Assembly: GCA_026929865.2 (NCBI GenBank) | Contig: CM049402.1 | Span: forward strand, 27,045,001 to 27,109,000 | Reading direction: 5' to 3' | DNA: 64,000 bases | From: Hyperoplus lanceolatus | Lineage: Eukaryota; Chordata; Actinopteri; Uranoscopiformes; Ammodytidae | Notes under the pieces: model-generated | Databases searched by the model: none | The model's input: the letters and a program-made list of their open reading frames with translations, nothing else | What the model was told of the DNA's origin: nothing | Shown here: positions 3,801 through 63,946 of the stretch, piece after piece | Layout of the letters: each line of letters starts with the position of its first letter | Position numbering within the stretch: position 1 is the stretch's first letter | Made by a program: the position numbers and the translations under genes

Positions 3801-4285
3801 GTGCATTTAAATTGCCATGTATAAAACACACTTGAGGTTTTTTTCCCTTTTGGATATGCTTGCCCATACCATAACCTCCCCACCGCCATGCACCAATCTG
3901 TTCAAAATGTTGAATGCCTTTATTTTTTCAGGTATTTGGTCACAAACCAAATTATTGGACAAAGTAGTTAGAGAATCACCGAATAAAGGCCAACATAGAT
4001 GTCCACAGTATAACTATGTCTAAAAACGATGTTGAAATAGATCACAAATACCTGTAAGATGCCGTAGGACATAACTTGTAACATGCTGTACTGATTTCTT
4101 CCATCCTCTTTCAAATTTGAAAACACTTATGCAGTCTGAATACTGCAGTCCCATTACAACTGGGTGATGAATGATTGTGATAATGCTGTGGTTATTAAAA
4201 AAAATGTAAGGTGTAATTAAAGATATAGGCTACAATTAGCTCCAGAATTTAGGCCCTTACAAATGCTGTAATAGTTACGATGCAG
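891..4285. other. Unassigned AT-rich stretch
   Basis: I see no coding exon, RNA gene or recognisable transposon here. The short open frames have no protein-like composition. Around 3431-3465 there is a weak resemblance to the 3' coding end of the Tc1 transposase at 22.96 kb, too short to call. Confidence 0.5.
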
Positions 4286-4293
4286 AAACACAT

Positions 4294-5095
4294 TTGACAC
4301 CACAGATCTTTACCCATCCTCCTCCTTTGCATCCGTATCTGCCACTGGATAACAGGTATGACATCCTAAGCCTGCAGGACTTCCCTCCCATGGATGTGCT
4401 GGCCGGCTCGCCCCCAGGACCTGCTCATCCAGCTTGTCGTGGCGCTCAGCACTCCAGGAATCGGGGTCCACCCGTCCAGCCTGATCTCTCCACTCCGTCT
4501 CGGCCAGGAGTGAACGCAGATCTGCGCCATAAACCCCAACCTCAGGCTCCATCCTGCCTCCGCCGCACCTCCAGGCAGCCAGTGGAGCGGCACACCCCGT
4601 CTGTACTGCTCATCGGGACCTCCATAGTCAGGCACGTGGCAGCGCATGGTGGCCGGACCTTCTGCCACCCAGGAGCCAGCGTCAACGACATTGCATCCTC
4701 GGCCCTCCAGCAGAGTGAACAGCACGGCTCGCCTTCCATGTTGGTCCTGGAAGCCGGCATCAACGACCTCAAAAAACAACAGTCGGAGGTACTTAAACGG
4801 GATTACGTCTCCCTTGTGGATCAACTGCTGGACACGGGGAAGCGGCTAATTATCGTATTATTATAGTAATTATAGTATGGTGACGTCACCACCAGCCTCC
4901 TTCATCAGCTGCACCTGTGGCTGAAGGGGTTCTGCCTAACAAGAAGCATTCCGTACGTGGACAACTTTGCAGCATTTTTAAACAGGCCTCGCCTTTTTAA
5001 ACGGGACGGTCTTCAACCGCATCAGAAGGGATCACAGCTTTTATCCGTCAACATTGACCTAACTGTCCGTTCATGCGCAACACCCACCTCCTGAC
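4294..5095 (+). pseudogene. LINE ORF1 SGNH-esterase remnant
   Basis: This encodes part of the esterase domain found in ORF1 of CR1/L2-clade LINEs. An open frame runs 4294-4866; the reading then shifts frame and continues to about 5095. Visible blocks are LLIGTSIVRHV (nucleophile Ser block), EAGINDL (GxND block) and DGLQPHQKG (terminal block, where the family usually has DGLH). The upstream part is proline-rich with no fold I can name. The frameshift and the replaced histidine mark it as dead. Known members form part of the LINE ribonucleoprotein; the role of the esterase is not settled. Confidence 0.7.
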
Positions 5096-5334
5096 TCACG
5101 GTAAATACAAATTCACATGCACACGGACACTCTGCTCACTCACATTCACTATCCCCCTCCTACACTATACACGCCCCCTGTTCAGTTGCCCCGGAAACAC
5201 ATGACAACAGCCATAACATTGAGACCACACTCACACACAGACAAATTAAACCCAGGGTTGTTTTTAGACCAAGCTGTGTTTTTAACATTCCTTTGAAAAG
5301 ACGTGATGAGCGCACGCTCGGCACGGACATTAGA

Positions 5335-6162
5335 ATGGCTGTGCTGAACGTGCGCTCTCTTTCAAACAAATCTTTTATCATAAATAATGTAATTTTAGAT
5401 AACAACCTAGATAGCATTCTCCTTACAGAGACATGGCTTGGCACTGATGCACCTGTTGTTCTCACTGGGGCTTCCCCACCAAATTGTAGCTTTTTATTTT
5501 CTAGTAGAGGGGGACAAAGAGGAGGCGGAACTGCTTCAATCTCTAAAGACACCATGTTATCCAATGAAGTCTTTTTTAACACATATTTATTATTTGAATA
5601 TCATGCTTTTGTTTTTAGCAGCCCCCCTATCCTCTGTATGACAGCATACAGACCACCCCGCTATTCCATCTCTTTCAACAGTGAATTCTCAGAGCTATTA
5701 TCAATTACCCATAGCAATTACAACAAAATATTTATAACCGGTGATTTTAATTTACACAAAGATAATACATCAGATTCAATGTCGAGAGAATTTTTAAACC
5801 TTTTACATTGCTTAGATTTTAATCAACATGTCACACAGCCGACCCACAACAGGGGGCGCACCATGGACCTGGTCATAACTTATGGCCTGTCCATTGGTGC
5901 GACCTCTGTTGTGGACCTGGCTGTGTCTGACCACTTATGTGTGTTTTTTACAATCACCAGTCTTAACCAGCAGGAGGCCCCAGTGAGAACCGTGAGGAAA
6001 CGCTACCTAACTTCTGAAGTGGCTACACATTTTATCCAGATTTTTCAGAGCACTCCTGCAGAAATTTTACCAGCACCATGTGATTTTATTGTTGACCGTT
6101 TTAACCATAAAATAAAAACAACGCTGGACTTAGTGGCTCCACTTTTAATAAAAAAACATTAA
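5335..6162 (+). pseudogene. LINE ORF2 endonuclease domain (first part)
   Basis: An apurinic-like endonuclease domain that nicks target DNA to prime reverse transcription. Seen in order: AVLNVRSLSNK near the start, LLTETWLG (catalytic Glu), TAYRPP, ITGDFNLH (the Asp-x-Asn pair) and VSDHLCVFF (terminal Asp-His). All the expected catalytic blocks are present, so this domain is better preserved than the rest of the element. The ATG at 5335 precedes the first conserved block, but the true ORF2 start may lie upstream. A stop at 6160-6162 follows a short lysine run; homology continues in another frame. Confidence 0.8.
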
Positions 6163-7035
6163 ATCAAAACCTACAGCCCCGCGCAGGAATGCAGAAATGT
6201 AAAGACTAAAGAGAAACTGCAGGAGTGCTGAGAGGAGATGGAGAAAAACAAAATTAACAGTTCACCAAGAAATTTTACTTGGACACCTCAGAACCTACAA
6301 TAACGCAGTCAAACAGTCAAGAATCTCCAATTTCCAAAAAATCATCAACAAACACAGTATTAACCAAAAAGTCCTCTTCTCCACAATCAACCTCTTAACA
6401 AATAGTAATTTTAACAGATCATCCAGAACACCTACCGACGCCCTCTGCGAGGAATTTGCAGACCACTTCAGAAGTAAAATCAATGACATCAGATCGAGTC
6501 TTTTACCTCAACAGACTTTAAATATCGACACACCTGGATCATTGATTTTACCCGAGGAAACACTGGAGAGTTTTGCCCTGGTTGATGCGAGGATACTTGG
6601 TTGAGTTTTATCCCAAGTAAAGCCCACAACCTGCCTATTAGACCCAATTCCCACACCGTTTTTTAAAACACTTTGTGGATTCTTTGAGGAACAGCTTTTA
6701 TACATGGTAAATTGCTCTCTTCAGACGGGTGGTGGTGAAGCCCCTTCTGAAGAAGAGCAACTTAGATCCCGACATTTTTAATAATTATCGGCCTGTATCC
6801 AACTTACCGTTTTTAAGTACAATTTTAGAAAAACTAGTTTTTAATCAAGTAAATCTTTTTCTAATCACAAACAATATTTTAGAGAAGTATAAGTCTGATT
6901 TCAGGACGAGCCATAGTACAGAGACAGCCCTTTTAAAGATTGTAAACAACATCAGGTACAACTCAGATAACCATAAACTCACAGTCTTGGTACTACTGGA
7001 TCTAACCACCGCCTTCGATACAATACACCATCACA
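6163..7035 (+). pseudogene. LINE linker and N-terminal half of reverse transcriptase
   Basis: Continues the element with at least two frame changes and an in-frame stop near 6602. Recognisable reverse transcriptase pieces are VKPLLKK, NNYRPVSNLPFLS and, in palm motif A, LLDLTTAFDTIHHH at the very end. The frame then runs into the inserted hAT element. The counterpart in the 42.7-45.0 kb LINE is uninterrupted. Confidence 0.8.
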
Positions 7036-8214
7036 CAGAGCGGCCAAGTCTCACGCTTTGGCCGTGAGACACAAACATATCAACCAGTTCACACGCTCAC
7101 ACGCCACACCTCCAATTTCTCATGCAGAGAAATGAATCCCCATAATATATATATTTTTTTGGTACTTTTACTTTGAAAGTCTTATTTTGAAAAGCTAAAC
7201 GGACTCAGTTCCGTGACATCCTCTTTCTGCCATGCTTTCTGCACGTGCGGTTTCTTTATAGGTCCATGGCATGGACAATATCCATGGCCGTGTGCAGCCC
7301 GTAGCCGCAGCAGCCACTTGGCAAACCACCACGGCCACGCCCCCCTGCGTTACACTACAAAACTAATAAAAGGCCGCCGCCTCCCAGTCCCGCCCTTTGT
7401 TCAAATTATATGGAAAATTAATGACAACAAGGACGCCGGTATTAAATGAACAAAGTGGTAAGAACACCTTGATTTAAATCAGTCACTTCACTTGATATAT
7501 TCAAGCTTGTTTTGCATTATGTTATTGGGCTGGTGGACACACCAACACATTTTTGTTCTAAAATGTTGTCAACATTAATTGAATGAATGTATTGAGTAAC
7601 TAAGCTTAGAGGTTACTGTGGGAAAAATATGTTCTGAGAAGACATCAAGTGTCATAGATTTAATATGATAATGGTGAATTGAAATTGGATAATTGGATAA
7701 CCCATACAATGTTGAATACATATAGAATAATTACCTTTATTACAGTTTAACAATAGGCTACAGGAGATATTTGAAAGCACTACACATGCATTGTAGGCTA
7801 TTCAATTAAATTTGTGTCAGCGAAACCGTGAATGTTCTCTTTTACTTTACATAAAAATGAATGCAGAAAAGGCACACATTGATTCATAAAAATTCACCAG
7901 AATGCAGGAAATTAAGTGTTTAATGCTCAAAATTTTCTGGGGGGGAACCCCAGACCCCCACTTACAATATGTCTACACCCAATGTTTAATTAAAATCTGT
8001 CCTACGACTTTGCAATTCATGAATTTGTTTATTTTAATACGATTTTTGATGTTTTATCACATTTTCCAATTGTCTTTTATTTCTGATTTATTATGAACGA
8101 TATGTAAACTTGCAGGACACTAGCAAAAAATATTGGGTGGGAAAGAGGACACGGTTTTGGGTCCCTCGGCCAAAAAATCTCACTCCAAACTTTTGGTGAA
8201 ACTTGGCAGCCCTG
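7036..8214. mobile_element. Non-autonomous hAT element in the LINE
   Basis: A 1179-bp insertion flanked by a perfect 8-bp duplication, CCATCACA, at 7028-7035 and 8215-8222. The termini are inverted: CAGAGCGGCCAAGTCTCACG on the left and, on the reverse strand, CAGGGCTGCCAAGTTTCACC on the right. Eight-base duplications and CAGRG ends are hallmarks of the hAT superfamily. No transposase frame remains. The interior at about 7850-7980 resembles 38330-38460 in another hAT element, including a run around CTGGGGG and CCCC. Confidence 0.88.
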
Positions 8215-22214: not shown

Positions 22215-22640
22215 GTGTTCCTTAATCATGTTTATCTATCTACATGTCTGTCTAATTTGTCTCTTATTTATTCAACAGCCCAATTTATAATTTGTTTTCA
22301 TTCAATGTAATTAATGAGTTATTTGTGTGATGTATTCCTACAGAGTGTCATTCTATTCAGCCAATGCTGTTAATACTCAAACTGCAAACGCACGGACAGA
22401 GGGAGAGTGGGTAACACTTTACAATAAGGTACTGTGGTGGATTTGAATAGCCTCTATTCATCAAGAGTTGCTGAGCAGATCTAAAACGCACCCAACTCTA
22501 AACGCACCCAACGCGTTTGGCGTGTTCTCACCTTAACAGTTTCGGTAATTCTTTGGTGCTGTGTTGCTGTCATTTCTTCCCCATTTTTCTCCTCTCATTG
22601 AGCACTTCACAATGTGCGAAACAGCGCCCCTTTACATTTA

Positions 22641-24271
22641 CACTCAACAAAAATATAAACGCAACACTTTTGTTTTTGCTCCCATTTTTCATGAGATGGA
22701 CTTAAAGATCTAGAATTCATTCCAGATACACAATATTACCATTTCTCTCAAACATTGTTCACAAATCTGTCTAAATGTGTGATGGTGAGCACTTCTGCTT
22801 TGCTGATATAATCCATCCCACCTCACAGGTGTGCCACATCAAGATGCTGATCTGACATCATGATTAGTGCACAGGTGTGCCTTAGACTGTCCACAATAAA
22901 AGGCCACTCTGAAATGTGCATTTTTTTGCTTTGTTGGGGTTCTGGGGACTCAGAACCAGTCAGTATCTGGTGTGACCACCATTTGCCTCATGCAGTGCAA
23001 CACATCTTCTTCGCATAGAGTTTATCAGATTGTCAATTGTGGCCTGTGGAATGTTGGTCCACTCCTCTTCAATGGCTGTGCGAAGTTGCTGGATATTAGT
23101 GGGAAGTGGTGCACGCTGTCGTATACGCCGGTCAAGCACATCCCAAACATGCTCAATGGGTGACATGTCCGGTGAGTATGCTGGCCATGCAAGAACTGGG
23201 ACATTTTCAGCTTCCAAGAATTGTGTACAGGTCCTTGCAACATGGGGCCGTGCATTATCTTGCTGAAACGTGAGGTGATGTTCATGGATGTATGGCACAA
23301 CAATGGGCCTCAGGATCTCATCACGGTATCTCTGTGCATTCAAAATGCCATCAATAAAATGCACCTGCATTCTTCGTCCATAACAGATGCCTGCCCATAC
23401 CATAACCCCACCACCACCATGGGCCACTTGATCCACAACATTGACATCAGAAAAGCGCTCACCCACACAACGCCACACACGCTGTCTGCCATCTGCCCTG
23501 AACAATGTAAACCGAGATTCATCCGTGAAGAGAACACCTCTCCAACGTGCCAGACGCCATCGAATGTGAGCATTTGCCCACTCAAGTCTGTTACGGCGAC
23601 GAGCTGGAGTCAGGTCAAGACCCCGATGAGGACGACGAGCATGCAGTTGAGCTTCCCTGAGACGGTTTCTGACAGTTTGTGCAGAAATTGTTTGGTTATG
23701 CAAACCAATTGTTTCAGCAGCTGTCTCAGTGGCTGGTCTCAGACGGTCTTGGAGGTGAACCTGCTGGATGTTGAGGTCCTGGGCTGGTGTGGTTACACGT
23801 GGTCTGCGGTTGTGAGGCCGGTTGGATGTACTGCCATATTCTCTGAAACGCCTTTGGAGATGGCTTATGGTGGAGAAATGAACATTCAATGCACGAGCAA
23901 CAGAGCTGGTTGACATTCCTGCTGTCAGCATGCCAATTGCACGCTCCCTCAATGCTTGTGGCATCTGTGGCATTTTGCTATGAGACAAAACTTCACATTT
24001 CAGAGTGGCCTTTTATTGTGGACAGTCTAAGGCACACCTGTGCACTAATCATGATGTCAGATCAGCATCTTTATGTGGCACACCTGTGAGGTGGGATGGA
24101 TTATCTCAGCAAAGCAGAAGTGCTCACTATCACACATTTAAACAGATTTGTGTACAATGTTTGAGAGAAGTGGTAATATTGTGTATCTGGAATGAATTTT
24201 AGATCTTTAAGTCCATCTCATGAAAAATGGGAGCAAAAACAAAAGTGTTGCGTTTATATTTTTGTTGAGTG
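22641..24271 (-). mobile_element. Complete Tc1-like transposon
   Basis: A 1631-bp element flanked by TA on both sides (22639-22640 and 24272-24273). The terminal inverted repeats are about 278 bp each (22641-22918 and 23994-24271) and begin CACTCAACAAAAATATAAAC. I count roughly eight mismatches between them, so the copy is recent. It contains one uninterrupted transposase frame on the reverse strand, spanning nearly the whole region between the repeats. Of all elements in the window, only this one shows every part needed for cut-and-paste movement. Confidence 0.95.
22960..23973 (-). CDS. Tc1/mariner DD34E transposase
   Basis: A 337-residue transposase that excises the element and inserts it at TA. 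The start is the ATG at 23973 (MPQMPQALRER); the frame is open further upstream but only through a TTG. The N-terminal third holds paired helix-turn-helix segments (ARALNVHFSTISHLQRRF, residues about 26-43) and a basic RRPR stretch at about 56-59. The catalytic triad is intact: Asp151 in LFTDESRF, Asp239 in FQQDNARPHVA and Glu274 in SPDMSPIEHVWD. The spacing between the last two is 34 residues, as expected for DD34E. The length is normal for Tc1 proteins, with no stop or frameshift. Whether it is active needs experiment. Confidence 0.95.
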   Translation of the reverse strand: MPQMPQALRERAIGMLTAGMSTSSVARALNVHFSTISHLQRRFREYGSTSNRPHNRRPRVTTPAQDLNIQQVHLQDRLRPATETAAETIGLHNQTISAQTVRNRLREAQLHARRPHRGLDLTPARRRNRLEWANAHIRWRLARWRGVLFTDESRFTLFRADGRQRVWRCVGERFSDVNVVDQVAHGGGGVMVWAGICYGRRMQVHFIDGILNAQRYRDEILRPIVVPYIHEHHLTFQQDNARPHVARTCTQFLEAENVPVLAWPAYSPDMSPIEHVWDVLDRRIRQRAPLPTNIQQLRTAIEEEWTNIPQATIDNLINSMRRRCVALHEANGGHTRY

Positions 24272-24579
24272 TAGATTCTGAAGATGCGGCAAAACACAAT
24301 ACTGCACACTATATGTCCGCGAGGAAGCCAGCCCGAGCTGGCATCCCTTAGTGAAAAAAAGAAAGAAGGATTGACCAATCAGGTGAGGCTATTGTCTTGC
24401 CACTGCCCTCCTGTGATTGGTCAGGAGGGTGTCATGAGGGTGCCAAGGGAAGCCACTCAGCCCTTGGCTTCACACCAATCAAATCAAAGCATCATTATCA
24501 ACGTCACTGAAATGTAACAACAATAACAATAGCGGGAGATTAGCATGTTTGCATTGTTATCATATTAGCAAGAACAGTT

Positions 24580-27512: not shown

Positions 27513-27872
27513 AGTACCTACTACATAGATATGCGTTACTAACTACATAGGTTTTTTTTTTGTGTTACCTACTACATAGGGGTTTTTTTGTGCTACCTAA
27601 CACATAGGTTTTTTTTTGGTGTGTTACCTACTACATAAGTTTATTTTTTTGTGCTACCTAACACATAGGTTTTTTTTGTGTTACCTACTACATAGGGTTT
27701 TTTTTTCGTGTGCTACCTAACACAGGTTTGTTTTTTGTGCTACCTAACACATAGGGGTTTTTTTTTTGGTGTGTTACCTACTACATAAGTTTTTTGTGTG
27801 CTACCTAACACATAGGGGTTTTTTTTTGTGCTACCTAACACATAGGGTTTTTTTATGCTACCTAACACATAG
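27513..27872. repeat. Minisatellite with T-tract and CTACCTA units
   Basis: About 13 tandem units of roughly 25-34 bp. Each is a poly-T tract of variable length, then GTG and either TTACCTACTACATAGG or CTACCTAACACATAGG. The two variants partly alternate. Confidence 0.92.
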
Positions 27873-39983: not shown

Positions 39984-41422
39984 ATGCCTCCCTTATCAAA
40001 CGAGGAGTATCAAATACTCCTACAGAGGATTACAGCACTGGAAACAAAAATTAATCGAATAGAAGTGAACATTGAAGTGAATGGACTATGTGAGAACGAC
40101 ACCACTCTACCAGTGACTTTAAACGGAGGACAAGATCAAGCTAACACACAGCTAACTACCACCCACAAGGCTATGAAGAAACAAAAGGACCGTGTCCAGG
40201 TTAGTGATAACCCTCCCTGGAATCGTCTTGGTGGAAGGCCAAAGAGATTGGAAAAGGGAGGACGGATAACGGGCAAGGCCGAGCACCATGAGATGACTGA
40301 TCTGGATGGCTGGCCTGCGTTATCACCCAGGCACGGGTGAGGCCGCAGCAATGGATTACTGCAAGGGGGAGAGGTAACAACAACAAACTTCCACAGCAAA
40401 CAAGTGTGCAAGGGTCGAACCGGTTTACTCCACTGATGCAAGTCCCTAAATTTCCCTCTGATGACCAAGATAGCATGGCGCTTGCACACAATAAGGTAAG
40501 GCCTGAAAGCCAAGAGCCACAGAGAAAACTAACAACCGGGCTAACCAAGCTAACAACTGGGCCTGAAAATCTGATTGTTGGAGACTTTTCTGTTAGAGAT
40601 ATTAAAAGCATGTGTAGTGTTGATACCAAAGTACTCTGCTTTCCCAATGATATGGTGTCGGACTTAGAAAAAGGAATCCTGGAAATTGCAGCAGCACACA
40701 CAACTGTAAAGAAAATCATTCTGCACATCGGGTCAAATGATGTTGTAAAGCACGAGTCTGAAATGTTGAAACAGAACTTTAACAATCTCCTGAACACAGT
40801 CAGCTCACTGAATGCTGAGGTGTATATCAGTGGTCCTCTGCCACCAATCAGAAGAGGACTTGAGAGATTCACTAGACTGTTAGCACTGAACACGTGGCTT
40901 TCAATAGCGTGCCCTGACCACTCAGTGCATTTTATTGACAATTTTAACATTTTCTGGAACCGCAGGCAGCTTTTTAAGACGGATGGACTTTGTCTAAATA
41001 AGGCTGGAGTTGTACTATTCACATCCAACGTGATTTACGTCCTACGTCACCCATCTGTTCGTGCCAAGGACAAGGCCCAGGAGGAGAAGATAACACAGCG
41101 TAGCAGCAGCACCGAAGGACAACTGCCGGCCCCAGATGACAGCTCAGACCATGAGAGATATCAGGGCAGAGAGGAGGGGGTCCCACCCATAACAAGCCCA
41201 CCTCTTGCTCATTCAATCTCTCCTACAACCACCCTTTCTCTATCCTCTCCTGATCTGGGATTCAAGGAAATCGTATGTACCCCCAGCAGTCAACGTCCCC
41301 CTCAACTCGCCAATCTAAGCCACAGTGCCCGGCTCTTCACCCCTCCACGCAAACCCCCTCCGATCCCACCGCGACGTCATTATCATCAGGCTTGGGAGAC
41401 TGATGATGTCAGCATTTGTTGA
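39984..41422 (+). pseudogene. LINE ORF1 with SGNH esterase
   Basis: The ATG at 39984 opens MPPLSNEEYQILLQRITALE, whose heptad-like spacing suggests a coiled coil for ORF1 multimerisation. The frame stops at 40340 but continues in another frame from about 40337, a one-base loss. The esterase part has LIVGDFSVRDIK (nucleophile Ser), LHIGSNDV (GxND) and DGLCLNKAG in the last block, where the family normally has His after DGL. The C-terminal 100 residues are proline- and serine-rich. The missing His predicts no esterase activity. Confidence 0.8.
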
Positions 41423-41588
41423 TATGTGTCGGGCCGCGGCTACACAGTTATCGCCTTCGACCCACAGGATAAGCCGGGGAGCCCTGTTTTTCAAGGTTTA
41501 TTTCAAGAAACGGAAAACCGTTATCAAATCTGATAAGCATTCCTCTTCAGCCACAATCTGCTGAAATAAATCGGGCTGACAATGCTTC

Positions 41589-42728
41589 GAACACACTAAA
41601 TGTAGCTTTATTAAACATCAGATCCTTGGCAGGTAAAACATTTTTAATTAATGATCTTTTTACTATGCACAATCTTAATTTTATGTTTTTAACTGAAACT
41701 TGGTTAGAGATAACAGCTCAGCTGTACTGATAGAATCCGCCCCCCAACCTACACTTTCGTGAGTGAATCCAGAGTGCATAAAAAGGAGGGGGGGTTGCTA
41801 TTTTGTTTAAAGAATCTCTACAATGCAAAAAGATGTCTTATGGAAATATGTATTCATTTGAGTATGTGGCTCTCCAGTTAAATTCAGCCTCTAGAGCTAT
41901 TTTCATCAATATCTACTGGCCACCACAATACAATACAAGCTTTTTAGATGACCTTTCTGAGCTGCTGTCTGTAATCAAACCATTGTCTCTTATATGAAAA
42001 GGTTGGGTGGTCCTCTCTTAAAGAGAGACGTGACGCACATTGGCACATTTTTATTTACAAAGCCTTGACCGGGAAGCTTCCTCGTTATTTAACTGAAATG
42101 CTGCACATTTCAGATGGGCTTTATCAAACCCGCTCCACTGACATCCTTATGCTTTATGTCCCACAAGCCCGGTCTGAGCTGGGAAAGACAGCTTCAGTGC
42201 CCCAGACTCCTGGAACAACTTACAGCAACAAATTAAACTAAATACATTCATATCCTTTGGCCAATTTAAACAGACTATCTTGGATCTGCCAAACTCTACT
42301 TGTAACTGTTTTAATTAGGCTATATTGTATTTTATTCCTTTTAATTACTGCCACTCTTCACCACTTTGTAAATGTTTCAATTGTTTTTGTTTTCTCTTCT
42401 CTTCACTTGTGTATTTGATGTATTTGCATTGAATATTTTGTATGTATTGTTGTTTTGAATTTGTTTTGACTCGACATCGTTGAAAATGAGGGTCACCCCT
42501 CAATTGATCTCTCGAGGATAAATAAAAGTTAAATGAAATGAAAATGAAAATCTGTATTGAGTTTCACTGTGTATTAATTGTTGGAGACTTAAATATTCAT
42601 ATCGACAAACTCGAGGACAGATGTGCAAAAGAACTGTGCTGTGTCCTTGACAACTTTGGACTAAATCAGCATGTTGACAAACCAACTCATAACAAAGGGC
42701 ACACTCTGGACCTTATCATTCCAGAGGA
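41589..42728 (+). pseudogene. LINE ORF2 endonuclease, broken
   Basis: Begins LNVALLNIRSLAGKTF and FLTETWLE (catalytic Glu), then shifts frame near 41710. It reappears as GGGVAILFKESL and IFINIYWPP, is interrupted by the 41977-42548 insertion, and resumes as LIVGDLNIHID (Asp-x-Asn) and THNKGHTLDLII. A last frameshift near 42724 separates it from the downstream long frame, which starts with the end of this domain (LSDHSCLFF). It cannot yield a working endonuclease. Confidence 0.8.
41977..42548 (+). mobile_element. 3' end of a different LINE, nested
   Basis: Inserted in the endonuclease frame between codons that are contiguous in the 5.3-kb element. Translation shows the tail region of a LINE ORF2 (IGTFLFTKALTGKLPRYLTE and ARSELGKTA), then a non-coding end with GAGGATAAATAAAAG and an AAATG-type tail. 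The flanks share only AATC (41973-41976, 42549-42552), so any target duplication is 4 bp or eroded. It differs from the L2-like elements here; the clade is not assigned. Confidence 0.7.
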
Positions 42729-44969
42729 ATGAACATTTCAGACGTAACAGTGGCAGATAGAGGTCCCCTCTCAGACCATTCCTGTTTATTTTTTGAGAGT
42801 AAAATGTCTGTGCACACAACTGATCAATCAAAAGTAATCAAAAAACGATATATTACAGAAAATACCAGTGAAACATTTATTCAAGCATTTTCTTTAATAC
42901 CACCCCTCCCCTGTAACTCAGTTAATGAGCTTTTAGACAACTTTAACGGCAAAATTACAAGTGTTATAGATGCTATTGCGCCCACTAAGATGAAGGTTGT
43001 CTCTGGTAAGAAAAGATCTCCCTGGAGAAATGCCCCGCAGGTCAGAATAGAAAAAAGAGAGTGCCGTAAAGCGGAACGCAGGTGGCGAAAAACAAATCTC
43101 CAGGTTCATTATGACATCTTCAAAGAGAAACTTCACACTTTTAACTCAGAGATGAAAAGTGCAAGGCAGTCTTTCTTTTCTGACGTCATCACCAAAAACA
43201 ACAACAATGCACGTGCCCTGTTTGCTACTGTCGACAGATTAACAAACCCTCCTGTGTCAGTAGCGTCTGAACATCTCTCCACGAGGGCCTGCAATGAATT
43301 TGCCTTCTTCTTTACTGAGAAAATTCACAAAATTAGACAAGCTGTCACTGCATCAATACAAAGTTCAACATATGTGTCATCGCTATGCCCACTTAAAATC
43401 AATCCAAATGCAATGACACAATTTTATCTGATAAACCACAAAAACCTGGAGGACATTATACAACACCTGAACTCCTCCTCCTCCTGTTGCCTTGACATTC
43501 TTCCCACAGGCTTCTTTAAAACTGTTTTTAGCTGTATGGCCTCAGATGTTCTACAAATTGTCAACATGTCCCTTCGGACAGGTGTATTCCCACAGGCCCT
43601 GAAAACAGCAGTCATCAAGCCACTCCTAAACAAGAACAATCTAGATACATCGCTCATGAACAATTATAGGCCCATATCTAACCTACCATTTTTAAGCAAA
43701 ATCATTGAAAAAGCTGTTTATCAACAGCTAAATAACTACTTAGCAATGAGCAACTGCTTTGATGTTTTCCAGTCAGGATTTCGACAACACCACAGCACTG
43801 AGACTGCTCTGGTTAAGGTCCTCAATGACATCCACTTAAACACAGACAGTGGCAAAAGTTCTGTTTTAGTTTTACTGGATCTCAGTGCCGCTTTTGACAC
43901 AGTTGACCACGGCATATTACTAGATCGACTAGCAAACTGGGTTGGACTCTCTGGAACTGTACTAAATAGGTTTGAATCCTACTTAAAGGACAGAGACTAC
44001 TATGTGTCAATAGGCAATTTCACATCTGAGCGGACACATATTGAATGCAGGGTTCCCCAAGGTTCCATTCTTGGGCCTCTTCTGTTTAACATCTACATGC
44101 TCCCACTAGCTCAGATTATGAATAAGAACAAATTATGCTACCATAATTATGCAGACGACACACACATTTACATAACCATATCACCAGGAGACTACAGTCC
44201 GATACAAGCACTGAGTAAGTGCATTGAACAAATCAATGATTGGATGTGCCAAAATTTCCTTCAATTGAACAGCGACAAAACTGAAGTAACTGTCTTTGGT
44301 GCCAAAGATGAACAATTAAAAGTCAGTGCACAGCTTACATCTGTTATGCTAGAAACCACACACCAAGCCAGAAATCTTGGTGTTGTCATAGACTCCGACT
44401 TTAATTTCAAGAAACACATCAAATCAATTAATAAGTCAGCATACTACCACCTTAAAAACATATCAAGAATTAAAGGACTTATGTCTCAGCAAGATTTAGA
44501 AAAACTTGACCATGTATTTATCTTTAGTATACTTGACTACTGTAACAGTGTCCTTGCAGGCCTTTCAAAAAAATCTATCAGACAGCTTCAGCTAATTCAG
44601 AACACTGCTGCTCGAGTCCTCACTAGGACCAAAAAAGTGGATCACATTACCCCAGTTCTGAGGTCTTTACACTGGCTTCCTGTCACTCAAAGAATTGATT
44701 TCAAAATACTGATGTTGGTTTATAAAGCACTAAATGGTTTAGCGCCAAAATACATTACTGATCTGCTGATACGTTATGAACCGTCCAGAGCCCTTAGGTC
44801 GTCTGGGACAGGTTTACATACAGTCCCAAGAGTTAGGACTAAACGAGGAGAAGCAGCTTTTAGTTTTTATGCACCAAATATCTGGAACAAACTCCCAGAA
44901 AACTTGAGGTCTGCTGCAACTCTCAGTTCTTTTAAATCGAGTCTGAAGACTTTTTTGTTTCCATTTTAA
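42729..44969 (+). CDS. LINE ORF2 reverse transcriptase, 746-codon open frame
   Basis: An uninterrupted frame from an ATG at 42729. It starts with the last endonuclease block (LSDHSCLFF, residues about 14-22), then a basic linker (KKRYITEN). The reverse transcriptase follows: VIKPLLNKNNLD and NNYRPISNLPFLSK, motif A LLDLSAAFDTVDH with FDTVDH at 389-394, the [17 protein letters not shown] block, and the catalytic YADD at 474-477. The C-terminal domain includes DYCNSVLAGLSKKS, HITPVLRSLHWLPV and AAFSFYAPNIWNKLPENLR. In a working element this would be the C-terminal three quarters of ORF2. The RT motifs are intact but the endonuclease upstream is disrupted, so it is annotated as an open partial frame, not a functional gene. 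Confidence 0.85.
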   Translation: MNISDVTVADRGPLSDHSCLFFESKMSVHTTDQSKVIKKRYITENTSETFIQAFSLIPPLPCNSVNELLDNFNGKITSVIDAIAPTKMKVVSGKKRSPWRNAPQVRIEKRECRKAERRWRKTNLQVHYDIFKEKLHTFNSEMKSARQSFFSDVITKNNNNARALFATVDRLTNPPVSVASEHLSTRACNEFAFFFTEKIHKIRQAVTASIQSSTYVSSLCPLKINPNAMTQFYLINHKNLEDIIQHLNSSSSCCLDILPTGFFKTVFSCMASDVLQIVNMSLRTGVFPQALKTAVIKPLLNKNNLDTSLMNNYRPISNLPFLSKIIEKAVYQQLNNYLAMSNCFDVFQSGFRQHHSTETALVKVLNDIHLNTDSGKSSVLVLLDLSAAFDTVDHGILLDRLANWVGLSGTVLNRFESYLKDRDYYVSIGNFTSERTHIECRVPQGSILGPLLFNIYMLPLAQIMNKNKLCYHNYADDTHIYITISPGDYSPIQALSKCIEQINDWMCQNFLQLNSDKTEVTVFGAKDEQLKVSAQLTSVMLETTHQARNLGVVIDSDFNFKKHIKSINKSAYYHLKNISRIKGLMSQQDLEKLDHVFIFSILDYCNSVLAGLSKKSIRQLQLIQNTAARVLTRTKKVDHITPVLRSLHWLPVTQRIDFKILMLVYKALNGLAPKYITDLLIRYEPSRALRSSGTGLHTVPRVRTKRGEAAFSFYAPNIWNKLPENLRSAATLSSFKSSLKTFLFPF

Positions 44970-47172: not shown

Positions 47173-47512
47173 TGTTTATTTCCTCTGCTGGAGGTATCTG
47201 CCAGAATCCAGAGAGGGCATGAGCATTTGCAGAACATTTAGCTGCATTCAGCTGTGCCAACAACCGGTCCTCTGATAACAAACAGTATCCCCTCACCTTT
47301 GGAGCCTTATTAGAATGGCACCTGAGAGGTCGTCAGGCACAATCCCTAGTGTCTTCATGGGGATATTTATTTGTTGCCATATTTCAGGCCTCAACACTGA
47401 TTATGGAGCACTTTGATATGGTAGGAAGCCTTTCCTCTGCTGTTCTTCCTGGATCCCAACTTGTTAAGAGTTAAGTTATTTAACATGAAAGAAAAATCTA
47501 TTTGAACTTCTT
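47173..47512. repeat. Duplicated block A (copy 1)
   Basis: About 340 bp, highly similar to 48159-48512. Shared blocks include ATCTGCCAGAATCCAGAGAG and GTGCCAACAACCGGTCCTCT. Non-coding as far as I can see. Confidence 0.9.
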
Positions 47513-47586
47513 GTATGTATGACTCAATAAATGTTCGCAGTATACAAAGAAAGTGAAGTTTGTGGTTTGAGCTGTCACAAACAGTG

Positions 47587-48150
47587 AGAGCTTGTTCTTA
47601 CAGCAGCTGTCACAGAAGTCGTCCAGTGACTACGTAAGACACCACTAAAACGTATTTAACACAGCAGTTGATTGTACAATCCATTTTTCAGTTCCAAAGT
47701 ATGTTTTTGTTGCATTGTGTGACAGTGTTGCAATCATTAGTTGCACATGCACAGACTCTAAAGACTGGGAAAGACAAAGTCCTTATTTGACCTTTGCCTT
47801 TGTGGAAAGTTTGTTCAGGCTTACCTGGTGCCAAAAAAACAATAGAAAATAGGCTAGTTAAGAAAAGTTGATCTTTAGTTCATTAAATAAAATATATTTA
47901 TCAACACCTGTCTCAGCACCGCTGCACAGTATGTGTGAAGACAGGCCAACACCTCTCTTCACACATACAGTGCAGACATTGAGCTTCTTGTGATTAATCC
48001 ACCTGAGGCTTTTTGGTTCCACACTTCCTGCTGTTGCTTCCACCTTGTTGTACTTTTTAATTTCCACTAATGAGTGAGTCAACTGTGAGTCAGACTTGTT
48101 TGTTCTTCTTCTTCTTGTATTTCTATTTTTTTAGTGTCACATTTTACAAA
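47587..48150. repeat. Duplicated block B (copy 1)
   Basis: About 560 bp, highly similar to 53461-54000. Shared blocks include CACAGAAGTCGTCCAGTG and CAGCACCGCTGCACAGTATG. A 74-codon reverse-strand frame is kept in both copies with a few substitutions, probably by shared descent only. Confidence 0.9.
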
Positions 48151-48158
48151 GAACGTCA

Positions 48159-48512
48159 TGTTTATTTCCTCTGCTGGATGTATCTGCCAGAATCCAGAGA
48201 GGGCATGAGCATTTGCAGACCATTTAGCTGCCTTCAGCTGTGCCAACAACCGGTCCTCTGATGCTTACAAACAGTATCCCCTCACCTTTGGAGCCTTATT
48301 AGCATGGCACCTGAGAGGTTGTCAGGCACAATCCCAAGTGTCTTCATGGATATATTTATTTGTTGCCAAGCCATATTTCAGGCCTCAACACGGATTATGG
48401 AGCACTCCTACTGTATATGATAGGAAGACTTTCCTCTGCTGTTCTTCCTGGATCCCTACTTGTTAAGAGTTAAGTTATTTTACATGAAATAAAAATCAAT
48501 TACAGCTTCTTT
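48159..48512. repeat. Duplicated block A (copy 2)
   Basis: Second copy of block A, starting within 10 bp of the end of block B copy 1. This indicates a tandem A-B-A-B arrangement. Confidence 0.9.
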
Positions 48513-53235: not shown

Positions 53236-53460
53236 CCTGGGGATCGAACACAAATTTTAACAGTGTGTCTTTGCAGGCCTGTTTTTCAAGTATTTTGAAA
53301 CAACAAACAACAAATGGTGTAGTTCAAGTCACGTCACAAAGATCATTTTTTCCATGCATCAGTGTTTAGTATGCAATTGATTGAATGCATCTGTCTGTAA
53401 AATACTTGAATAGGATCACTTCATATTAAATGTTCAAAGAGCCCCTTGATGAGTGCGTGT

Positions 53461-54000
53461 GAGTGCTTGTTCTTACAGCAACTGTCACAGAAGTCGTCCA
53501 GTGGCTGCTTAAGACACCACTAAAAACGTATTTAACACAGCAGTTGATTTTACAATCCATTTTTCAGTTCAAAGGAATGTTTTTGTTGTCAATCTAGTAT
53601 CAGGCCAAACAGACTCTGTGGACTGGGAAAGACAAAGTCCTTTGAAATCTGCCTTTGTCAAAAGTTGTTTGTTCATGAAAAAAAAACATAGAAAAAATAG
53701 GCTAGTTAAGAAAAGTTGATCTTTAGTTCATTAAATAAAATATATTTATCAACACCTGTCTCAGCACCGCTGCACAGTATGTGTGAAGACAGGCCAACAC
53801 CTGTCTTCACACATACAGTGCAGACATTGAGGTTCCTGTGATTAATCCACCTGAGGCCTTTTGGTTCCACACTTCCTGCTGTTGCTTCCACCTTGTTGTG
53901 CTTTTTGATTTCCACTAATGAGTGAGTCAACTTTGTCAGAATTGTTTGTTCTTCTTCTTCTTGTATTTCTATTTTTGTTCAACTGTCATATTTTACAAAT
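53461..54000. repeat. Duplicated block B (copy 2)
   Basis: Second copy of block B, about 5 kb beyond block A copy 2. Small indels distinguish it from copy 1. Confidence 0.9.
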
Positions 54001-56534: not shown

Positions 56535-57470
56535 TTCTTTCTTTTTTTTCAAAGGTTTTTTTTATTAAATGTTAGTAACGAAATTGTAACACAATGAATA
56601 CAAATTTTTTTCCCCTTTTTTGCCGAACATACCCCACCCACATCCCACCCTCACACCCAACAACACAAAATATACACTACAAGAAACAGAAATAAACAAT
56701 CAATATGAAAAAAAAAAAAACATAAAGAAATAAAATTAAATCAAATAAAAGAGGGGGGAGGTAGCTACTCTTCTATAGTTGTTGTTGGTTTTTTTAAATT
56801 ATTTAGGAAGGGGCGCCAAATTCTGTCAAATTTATTCTCGGATCCCTGGGTAGTATAACGTATTTTCTCTAAATTCATACATGACATAATGTCTCTAATC
56901 CAATGTGAGTGGGAAGGAGGAGCAGGATCTTTCCACTTGAGTAAGATAACCCTACGAGCAAGTAATGAGGTGAAGGCCAGTACCTTCAGCTTCACTTTAG
57001 GTAAGCCCGGATTTGGAGCAATGGCAAAAATTGCAGTGAAAGGGTTCGGCTCCATTTGATGCTGAAGTACTTCAGAAATTGTTTGAAAAACTGATGTCCA
57101 GAACTCAGTCAAGGTGGGACACAACCAGTACATGTGAAAGAGTGATGCCGGTGCGCTCTTACAGCTATCACAGGTCGGGTCAACATCGGGGAACATACGA
57201 GCTAATTTAGTTTTAGATATGTGGATACGATGTACTACTTTAAATTGCACAAGAGCATGTCGGGCGCACATGGAGGTAGAGTGTATCCGATCCAGGACTG
57301 AATGCCACATGTGATCTGTGAAGGCAGAACCTAGGTCCTGCTCCCACATGGTTCTTATAGCTGCTAATGAGGGGCTATGCAACTTCGAAATAAGGTTGAA
57401 CAACACAGAAATTGAGCCTTTTAATGTGGGGTTTACAGAAAGAAACAAATCGACATGATTGGCTGGCGGT
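56535..57470 (-). mobile_element. L1/Tx1-type LINE 3' fragment
   Basis: A 5'-truncated reverse-strand LINE end. A 227-codon frame at 56765-57448 encodes the C-terminal part of an L1/Tx1-type ORF2. It includes ARHALVQFKVVHRIHISKTK and a zinc-knuckle-like Cys93-x2-Cys96-x8-His105-x4-Cys110 (CDSCK...HMYWLC). A/T-rich sequence at 56535-56760 is the 3' region. The open frame suggests modest age. Confidence 0.75.
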
Positions 57471-57589
57471 TTATAAGGGAATTAGGAAATTAACTTCTGC
57501 GTAAAATGCCTGATTTGCAGAAATCGGCTGCGCAGAGAGTTGGAAGGTATGGAAAAGCAGGGTGAAACGAATTAGAGAGAAATCTCATC

Positions 57590-60933: not shown

Positions 60934-61480
60934 CTAGAAATGCAATTCCTGAAGAAATTGCGGTGTGAATGCTGCGCTGCTGAACTGAAGCTGATGCTGA
61001 ATAATAGAATGTTTGAGAAATGTGGAATATTTGGAAGTTTGAATGGACTTTCTAGGTGGAATTAGGAATGAATTATGACCTTGAACTATGACCTCCAAAA
61101 TGTAATCAGTTCATCTTTGAGTCAGAATCAACATTTGTGCAAAATTTGAAGAAAAACCGTGGAAGCGTTCATGAGATAATGCAGTCACAAAAGGCAACGC
61201 CACAGTGACTTTGAAATTTGACCTTTGACCTCTAAACTCTTGTGATGTCATCTCTGAGTCATACTCAACATCTGTGCAAAATTTTAAGAAAATCCGGTGA
61301 AGTCTAAAATTTGGTGTTGGAACAGGGAATCGAACCCCCAACCCTGTGTTCAGCTCAATCAGGATACTACCATGTAATGCTCTGAAGGAGCTGAACATTT
61401 AGAATGTGGTATGTAGTTTATCGGATGAAAAATGATTGAGTTAACGAAATTTGATTTTATTGTGTTTGTGTCTCTGTGGA

Positions 61481-61531
<51 letters not shown>

Positions 61532-62213
61532 ACACCACCTTTAAAATCCTATTGCAGAGGTGGGATTGGAACCTGCAACCTTCCAGTTATGAGTCCAAAG
61601 CATTAACCACTACGCCACCAAACAGGTGTGTGCCCATTTGGCGAACAATGGAAAAAAGTTCCTTGTTGTGCACTCTGCCAAAATGCAGGGGTTCCTGTAA
61701 TACATTCCCTATGGGGATTTTTGGTGTAATAAACCTTTAAATATCTCTGAAGTTATGAATTTTATGAAAAAATTGTGAATTATGGAAATGTGCTCCTGTG
61801 CAAGACGAACATGGAAAACTTAAAATCGAGTTTCTACGATGAACTATGAACGAGTAGGACGAATCATAATTTTGTATGAAATATTAATTTCATAAAAAGT
61901 TGAATTGCTTTGAAGTTATGGATTTTATGAAAAAACTGTTCACAAATTATTGTTGTCTGGAATGAGCTGAACATTTAGACGTAGGAATCAAGTTTGTCGG
62001 ATGAATTTTCAGGGAGGAGAAGAGATTTGAAACTTTTCATAATTTTGGTTTAATTGCTTATTAATTATGAAGTTATTAATTTTTTTGAAAATTTTGAATG
62101 AAAGCGCACATGTCAAAAATGGGTTAAATATGAGGATGGTTGAAGATAGTTTGTGGAATGAAGCATGTTGAAGATATGGCCAAGCATGAATTTGGGCGGA
62201 ATAATAATAATAA
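60934..62213 (-). mobile_element. Helitron/Helentron-like non-autonomous element, copy 1
   Basis: A 1280-bp unit directly followed by a near-identical copy. Read on the reverse strand it starts in a TTATTATTATT-CCGCCC region and ends GGAATTGCATTTCTAG followed by T. A hairpin (GCAATT...AATTGC) sits 4 bases before the CTAG. It contains a tRNA-like module (61559-61620), a second B-box (near 61326) and a (GT)n at 61486-61530. The CTAG end after a hairpin, flanked by T, fits a Helitron-type 3' end. No Rep/helicase is present. Confidence 0.5.
61559..61620 (-). repeat. tRNA-like module in the tandem element
   Basis: Reverse strand: GGCGTAGTGGTTAATGC (A-box), an anticodon-loop-like CTCATAA, and GGTTCCAATCC (B-box). 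The 5' acceptor arm is missing, so it is not a functional tRNA gene. Repeated at 62921-62982 in copy 2. Confidence 0.65.
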
Positions 62214-63570
62214 CTAGAAATGCAATTCCTGAAGAAATTGCGGTGTGAATGCTGCGCTGCTGAACTGAAGCTGATGCTGAATAAACTTCACTGCTGAATG
62301 TTGATGAAGAACGAAGGATGAATATATCTGAATGAACAGAATGGTTGAAAAATAGAATGCTTGAGAAATGTGGAATATTTGGAAGTTTGAATGGACTTTC
62401 TAGCTGGAATTAGGAATGAATTATGACCTTGAACTATGACCTCCAAAATGTAATCAGTTCATCTTTGAGTCAGAATCAACATTTGTACAAAATTTGAAGA
62501 AAAACCGTGGAAGCGTTCATGAGATAATGCAGTCACAAAAGGCAACGCCACAGTGACCTTGAAATTTGACCTTTGACCTCTAAACTCTTGTGATGTCATC
62601 TCTGAGTCATACTCAACATCTGTGCAAAATGTTAAGAAAATCCGGTGAAGTCTAAAATTTGGTGTTGGAACAGGGAATCGAACCCCCAACCCTGTGTTCA
62701 GCTCAATCAGGATACTACCATGTAATGCTCTGAAGGAGCTGAACATATAGAATGTGGTATGTAGTTTATCGGATGAAAAATGACTGAGTTAACGCAATTT
62801 GATTTTATTGTGTTTGTGTCTCTGTGGAATGTGTGTGTGGCTGTGGTGTGTGTGTGTGTGTGTGGTGTGTGTGTGTGTGTGTGTGTGTGTGTCACACCAC
62901 CTTTAAAATCCTATTGCAGAGGTGGGATTGGAACCTGCAACCTTCCAGTTATGAGTCCAAAGCATTAATCACTACGCCACCAAACAGGTGTGTGCCCATT
63001 TGGCGAACAATGGAAAAAAGTTCCTTGTTGTGCACTTTGCCAAAATGCAGGGGTTCCTGTAATACATTCCCTATGGGGATTTTTGGTGTAATAAACCTTT
63101 AAATATCTCTGAAGTTATGAATTTTATGAAAAAATAGTGAATTATGGAAATGTGCTCCTGTGCAAGACAAACATGGAAAACTTAAAATCGAGTTTCTACG
63201 ATGAAGTATGAACGAGTAGGACGAATCATAATTTTGTATGAAATATTAATTTCATAAAAAGTTGAATTGCTTTGAAGTTATGGATTTTATGAAAAAACTG
63301 TTCACAAATTATTGTTGTCTGGAATGAGCTGAACATTTAGACGTAAGAATCAAGTTTGTCGGATGAATTTTCAGGGAGGAGAAGAGATTTGAAACTTTTC
63401 ATAATTTTGGTTTAATTGCTTATTAATTATGAAGTTATTAATTTTTTTGAAAATTTTGAATGAAAGCGCACATGTGAAAAATGGGCTGAATATAAGGATG
63501 GTTGAAGATAGTTTGTGGAATGAAGCATGTTGAAGATATGGCCAAGCATGAATTTGGGCGGAATAATAAT
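62214..63570 (-). mobile_element. Helitron/Helentron-like non-autonomous element, copy 2
   Basis: Near-identical to copy 1 but about 78 bp longer at 62285-62362. Its right flank (63575-63625) carries additional 5' sequence with a GTGTGAATGC-GCATTCACAC palindrome that is an inverted match to the 3' region, i.e. asymmetric terminal inverted repeats. It contains the same tRNA-like module (62921-62982) and GT tract (62830-62892). Confidence 0.5.
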
Positions 63571-63946
63571 AATAATAAATACGCAGAATATCAATGCTGT
63601 GAATGCTTTCAGCATTCACACCAATTATGTAAATGTAAATTATCATACATTAAAAGGAATACAATGTTTTGGTAGATAGTTAATTGCTTAATGATTGAAT
63701 CAGTTCATCTGGGAGGTAATCCGAGGTTAACTGATCACGTCACGTTCAAGTCCATGGCATGCACAGTGTGTATTGAGTTTATTTAAAAATATTTGAAAAT
63801 GGGGCTGCCCTCAGTTGCCCATGCACTGTGTAGGCCTATAGTCTATTTCAGCCTTGTCTGTGGAAAAAAAGATAACTGGACAACAGAGTTCTTCTGCTTC
63901 GTTCCTCTCACTGCATTTAAATGAATTCATTATAATACAGAGAAAT

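Follow-up and report, generated by a model that had tools for sequence, protein, structure and literature searches.

A tandem repeat in the window, by which is meant the whole 64,000-nucleotide stretch of DNA that was analysed (G000:C8:27045001-27109000, from an 807-Mb assembly of 527 contigs), is probably best explained as a non-coding, non-autonomous rolling-circle transposon of the Helentron/HINE type which stacks by inserting into its own (TTA)n tract. Judged from its sequences, the family to which it belongs is real, appears to be a non-autonomous and Helentron-like group of rolling-circle elements, and bears strong indications of having inserted into its own TTA tract. Helentrons and HINEs are its nearest kind, rather than the canonical Helitrons. 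The host appears to be a fish, judging by the size of the genome, its chromosome-sized contigs and its repeats. The features of the copy in the window are as follows.

60934–63624, minus strand: whole composite element, with one 5′ module, two bodies and two 3′ ends
62214–63624, minus strand: unit A, complete (TTGGTG...CTAG), 1411 bp
60934–62213, minus strand: unit B, a body without the 5′ module, with first letters TTATTATTATTATTCCGCC abutting the CTAG of unit A
63579–63624, minus strand: 5′ module, 46 nt, with a palindromic subterminal repeat (stem-loop 63598–63620)
63562–63578, minus strand: (TTA)n tract of unit A, 17 nt, the kind of tract interpreted as landing site
62200–62213, minus strand: leftover (TTA)n tract of unit B, 14 nt, at the junction
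60962–60974 (unit B) and 62242–62254 (unit A), minus strand: 3′ subterminal inverted repeat CAGCATTCACACC
60942–60961 (unit B) and 62222–62241 (unit A), minus strand: 3′ hairpin GCAATTTCTTCAGGAATTGC
60934–60941 (unit B) and 62214–62221 (unit A), minus strand: 3′ terminus ATTTCTAG
61482–61530 (unit B, no strand assigned) and 62830–62892 (unit A): (GT)n microsatellite
61552–61624 (unit B) and 62914–62986 (unit A), minus strand: tRNA-like module 1, weak (RF00005)
61326–61336 (unit B) and 62674–62684 (unit A), minus strand: perfect B-box-like 11-mer of module 2

Read along the minus strand from 63624 to 60934, the element consists of the 5′ module, the 17-nt tract, body A (to 62214), the 14-nt tract and body B, with the limits of unit A being those of the dispersed copies L003, L004 and L005. 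The palindromic repeat of the 5′ module reads TTGGTGTGAATGCTGAAAGCATTCACAG, and an inverted copy of it precedes the hairpin and CTAG in each body. Both units terminate with CAGCATTCACACC, GCAATTTCTTCAGGAATTGC and ATTTCTAG, the next base being T. When folded as DNA, the 5′ palindrome of unit A gave a z of −5.4 against dinucleotide shuffles and the 3′ hairpin a z of −2.0, with 10 of 200 dinucleotide shuffles folding equally well. A stretch of 68 bp near the 3′ end is present in A and absent from B (repeat spacings of 1280 versus 1348). The initial annotation had described a tandem pair of nearly identical head-to-tail units of about 1.3 kb, each with an internal GT tract and a 3′ end made of a GCAATT...AATTGC hairpin, a terminal motif and a following T. 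These features were all recovered, the two units lying on the minus strand and being 97.3% identical over 1230 aligned positions. The inverted motif that it placed near the other end corresponds to the palindrome at the 5′ end of unit A, but has no counterpart in unit B, which lacks the 5′ module. For the same reason the pair, while made of two head-to-tail bodies, represents one 5′ end, two bodies and two 3′ ends and not two complete elements. It should also be noted that AGGTCAAAGGTCA lies on the minus strand in each unit (61219–61231 and 62567–62579) and resembles what we take to be a putative DR1 nuclear-receptor site.

The ends of the family are far beyond chance. The exact 30-base 3′ end gave 97 matches in 807 Mb (41 forward and 56 reverse), compared with none for the reversed pattern used as a control on the same assembly, and the 3′ end pattern had no match in viral contigs. 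As the pattern takes in the TT after CTAG and only ends fitting it exactly are counted, the window's own outer 3′ end lies outside the 97. Subfamilies agree in their left and right blocks and vary in the middle, where some have CA arrays of more than 1 kb.

The flanks of the family were surveyed at 39 5′ modules and 43 3′ ends from 31 loci, leaving out L021 and loci nested inside longer loci. Seventeen modules were scored as host-flanked by script, five of which (three of L033, one of L034 and one of L039) were set aside as own tracts or direct junctions. All 12 host-flanked 5′ ends that were kept start with TTGG, and the base before TT is A in 10 and T in two. At the other end, 23 3′ ends were scored as host-flanked and two of L040 were set aside (one poly-T case and one mutated self-flanked case); T follows CTAG in all 21 of those kept, as TT in 20 and as TA in the window. 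An empty site was also found, with the joined flanks of L047 aligning to L046:330-521 across the junction (180 of 192 positions). The insert relative to this site is exactly TT...CTAG, with no target duplication, and since the site is a run of five T the position of the cut within A-T-T is ambiguous; Helentrons and HINEs insert within TT. The other 10 of the 11 joined flanks gave no empty match in a paralogous search limited to the retrieved loci. Fixed ends, subterminal inverted repeats, a 3′ hairpin and the lack of duplication at the sole empty site agree with the rolling-circle reading given at the outset, and the insertion between A and T or T and T that was to be checked was seen as A|TT or T|TT. 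Nearly identical 3′ flanks were observed at different places for L041 (C6:601594) and L058 (C2:39032734), and likewise for L067 (C5:2943019) and L103 (C17:19058503), which could reflect either a repeat that was twice targeted or sequence that was carried along.

The number of 5′ modules, bodies and 3′ ends differs between copies, as listed here.

L004, L005, L009, L010 and L011: one 5′ module and one 3′ end
L003, L046 and L047: two modules and one 3′ end
L030: two modules, two bodies and two 3′ ends
Window copy: one module and two bodies
Longer or broken stacks, also seen: at least 12 modules in L034

In L030, the left and right parts of the outer tract together equal the uninterrupted tract of L011 in length. 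A stricter regular expression retrieved 32 modules and 18 adjacent pairs; the gaps between adjacent modules end in TT in all 18, and 17 of them, 2 to 23 nt long, consist of nothing but leftover tract. Neighbouring modules are of different subtype in nine of the 18 pairs, which favours fresh insertion over the in-place copying of one module. In L047, two modules of different subtypes occupy an otherwise intact site, so that this composite most simply moved as a unit, and it seems that some composites do then move as units.

With loci chosen by likeness to the tandem query being a biased sample, the 3′ flank was read at every one of the 97 exact ends, 35 from loci and 62 as 32-base pieces. Host sequence follows in 71 of them and the family's own sequence in 26, namely a tract and body in 22, a tract and 5′ module in one and TTGGTGTG directly in three. 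L010 and L091 were assigned to host by eye, reducing the tract and body class from the 24 of the script to 22. These 22 junctions represent 16 tract/body combinations, which may partly differ through later mutation, and the count of self-insertions is inflated by stacks copied whole. The density of ATT in the window is approximately 0.049 per base over both strands, corresponding to some 40 million sites if the rest of the genome is similar. On this basis, roughly 0.03 of the 97 insertions would be expected to be self-targeted given 1400 copies with eight sites each, the 1400 being first-look candidates of which 39 were scored and the eight sites per copy an assumption. Exact 3′ ends at most 3.5 kb apart form 13 pairs, all on the same strand, where uniform placement predicts 0.04. 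As a separate observation, three right blocks of L038 (C7) and L039 (C13) have zero branch length and lie inside multi-unit arrays, suggesting either a recently spread composite or gene conversion.

It is proposed that a Rep-helicase-endonuclease made elsewhere in the genome would nick the 5′ end, that the strand would be copied up to the 3′ hairpin and CTAG, and that the product would be inserted between A (or T) and TT. Older copies would often receive new ones in their (TTA)n tract, on the inner side of the 5′ module, and with such nesting 5′ modules would pile up on the left and bodies and 3′ ends on the right. Copying from the outer 5′ end to the first 3′ end would yield two 5′ ends with one 3′ end, as in L003, L046 and L047. 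Copying from the inner 5′ end past the first 3′ end could give the one 5′ end and two bodies of the window structure, for which the loss of one 5′ module by recombination may be an alternative. Given the single 5′ module in the window copy, simple nesting requires an additional step. It is conceivable, and put forward tentatively, that the (TTA)n tract is a built-in landing pad drawing the element's own family, producing arrays of 5′ ends and bodies of which some are mobile as units. If true, satellite-like arrays and new composite transposons would arise in a vertebrate by a self-propagating route. The stacks would also provide a countable natural record of the start, stop and landing points of rolling-circle transposition in an apparently vertebrate genome, with tract lengths and subtypes allowing separate events to be distinguished.

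The relationship between units A and B bears on one alternative, namely that a single insertion was afterwards duplicated in tandem on the spot, by unequal exchange or slippage. The right block is 618 bp long, with 494 columns common to A and B. Over it, A matches L004 at 99.5% identity and B at 98.2%, with eight other copies nearer to A than B is, which points to separate insertions of A and B. The left block does not point that way. Here A is 99.0% identical to L003, 98.5% to L011 and 98.45% to B, and A is the nearest copy to B, the tree joining the two with a weak support of 0.755. This left-block kinship counts against self-insertion and in favour of a duplication, as does the membership of A and B, so alike over their aligned length, in the same subfamily. 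It is set against the eight closer copies in the right block, the many stacks that combine different subtypes and the differing tracts at the junctions. A simple tandem duplication is thus disfavoured and considered unlikely, and the nesting of one insertion in another would be a better reading of the tandem pair than a recent duplication, since unit A is closer in the right block to eight other copies than to B. That A and B are independent insertions is suggested by this comparison but not proved.

Tandem units could also have been inserted in one event as a rolling-circle concatemer, from a circular intermediate copied for more than one round. Circles have been described from an active bat Helitron (PMC4778049), and all 13 close pairs in the present family are head-to-tail. 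The direct CTAG|TTGGTG junctions, which make up 3 of the 97 exact 3′ ends, count against self-insertion and are also expected of such a concatemer. However, the 5′ module is missing at the junction in the window and at 22 of the 97 ends, and several stacks place modules of different subtype side by side. A concatemer is disfavoured for the window and seems rather improbable, though possible for the 3 of 97 ends, and insertion into the family's own tract is retained as the preferred explanation.

From two tRNA-like B-boxes per unit, the initial annotation had suggested a possible composite SINE–Helitron, to be tested for Pol III transcripts. The corresponding alternative is that a tRNA-derived SINE has joined a Helitron and that Pol III transcribes the product. 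Module 1 does carry A-box-like and B-box-like words, a perfect B-box word (GGTTCGANTCC) is found once per unit in module 2, and a different tRNA-like stretch with a perfect B box is present in L032, of an older subfamily. The likeness to tRNA stays below threshold, with scores of 19.4 and 14.6 bits under the gathering score of 29 of RF00005. The higher score belongs to module 1 of unit B; its copy in unit A had no match to the model, and no gathering-level tRNA match was found in 17 loci. ARAGORN predicted no tRNA in the window at default settings, and its relaxed calls were also obtained from shuffled modules (38 of 500 and 47 of 500 for the two modules), leaving the tRNA-like claim weak. In addition, the sole empty site shows no duplication and the element closes with a fixed CTAG, in place of the target duplication and 3′ tail of a tRNA-derived SINE. 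A SINE–Helitron composite is very improbable. Module 1 had 13 matches and module 2 had 42 in the loci searched, with one place counted twice.

HINEs are defined by subterminal inverted repeats (subTIRs), a 3′ palindrome, a T-rich target and the absence of duplication (PMC4067079), and have also been described from oyster (PMC7492417). Like HINEs and DINE-1-like elements, the family has a palindromic subTIR 2 nt from its 5′ end with an inverted copy before the 3′ end, a 3′ palindrome 8 nt from the end, an internal microsatellite and a T-rich target, with no duplication at the one empty site (PMC4067079). Its 13-bp subTIRs, GGTGTGAATGCTG on the left and CAGCATTCACACC on the right, fall within the 12–15 bp length and, for the left one, the 2–4 nt distance of Helentrons and HINEs, as does the GCAATT...AATTGC palindrome, exact in 97 places, within the 8–35 bp distance from the 3′ end. 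The 3′ subTIR, at 28 nt from the 3′ end, is outside the 38–60 bp of mite HINEs (PMC4067079); in Helitron2-like elements this repeat lies approximately 20–40 bp from the end (PMC5148889). Unlike in HINEs, the ends are TT...CTAG and A precedes 10 of the 12 host-flanked 5′ ends, and a partner sharing these ends was not identified.

The CTAG end, the 3′ hairpin and the AT target in an AT-rich flank are shared with canonical Helitrons and with Helraiser (PMC4778049), the canonical 3′ end being CTRR with a hairpin about 11 nt upstream and A|T insertion, compared with CTAG and a hairpin 8 nt upstream here. In contrast, the 5′ end is not TC; it begins with TT, carries a palindromic subTIR and reads TTGG at the 12 host-flanked 5′ ends. 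Read-through beyond the 3′ end has been described for Helraiser, and the active bat Helitron captured flanking DNA in approximately 11.7% of events and used AT-rich targets (PMC4778049). The family thus combines subterminal repeats of Helentron character with the CTAG and A|T features of Helitrons. Proto-Helentron-Pi of Phytophthora infestans similarly has a 5′ TT, a 3′ CTAG and insertion between A and T, but is an autonomous element of about 14 kb with a Helitron-like structure, whereas the present family has subTIRs of the Helentron type (PMC4067079). Several 5′ termini with one 3′ terminus are known from FoHeli of Fusarium oxysporum, which also has asymmetric terminal inverted repeats, and self-insertion as the source of multiple 5′ ends has already been proposed there (PMC5148889). 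The present family differs from FoHeli in that the landing site is the (TTA)n tract adjoining the 5′ module on its inner side, that one stack (L034) contains at least 12 modules and that 26 of 97 exact 3′ ends are self-flanked. No report of a TTGGTG...CTAG family was found in the literature searched, which included full-text searches for three terminal strings, and PMC4021074 yielded no passage with Helentron terms.

A search with the PF14214 profile gave 11 matches at nine places in the genome. The protein on contig C297 is encoded in two overlapping frames with OTU, DUF6570, Helitron_like_N (Rep), PIF1 and Exo_endo_phos (endonuclease) domains, and carries the letters GSPH, given as a Helentron mark in PMC4067079. 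Within the first 9.9 of the 16.3 kb of C297, the family ends were absent at the mismatch limits set, the single exception being a 13-mer that lies in the coding part and differs at two positions. Only two matches of 20–22 bases were obtained between this part of C297 and unit A (E of 0.04 and 0.14), and a tblastn search with the C297 Helentron frames produced no match at E 0.001 in 30 element loci or in the window. Not one of the nine Rep places has any of the 97 exact 3′ ends within 20 kb, a count which would miss diverged ends; the shortest distance is 26.7 kb, on C14, and exact 3′ ends are absent from the four unplaced contigs that carry Rep matches. The autonomous Rep-helicase element with the same ends, sought at the suggestion of the initial annotation, was thus not found, and with no exact end near the Rep places we can only infer a Rep-helicase-endonuclease partner encoded elsewhere in the genome.

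A number of other repeats are located within the window. At 22636–24276, inverted ends of 290 bp that are 97% complementary surround a 350-aa open frame, whose protein has the appearance of a presumable Tc1/mariner-like transposon. Open frames, the longest of 758 aa, lie at 40301–44969 and 4240–7067, and we take them to be LINE-like from their endonuclease and reverse-transcriptase appearance, while a 238-aa frame on the minus strand at 56765–57481 presumably resembles a LINE tail. A minisatellite with a period of 57–59 occupies 27539–27872. Direct repeats were also observed at 47173–48511 and at 47584–48087 and 53459–53935, about 1 kb and 5.85 kb apart, respectively, and 91–97% alike.
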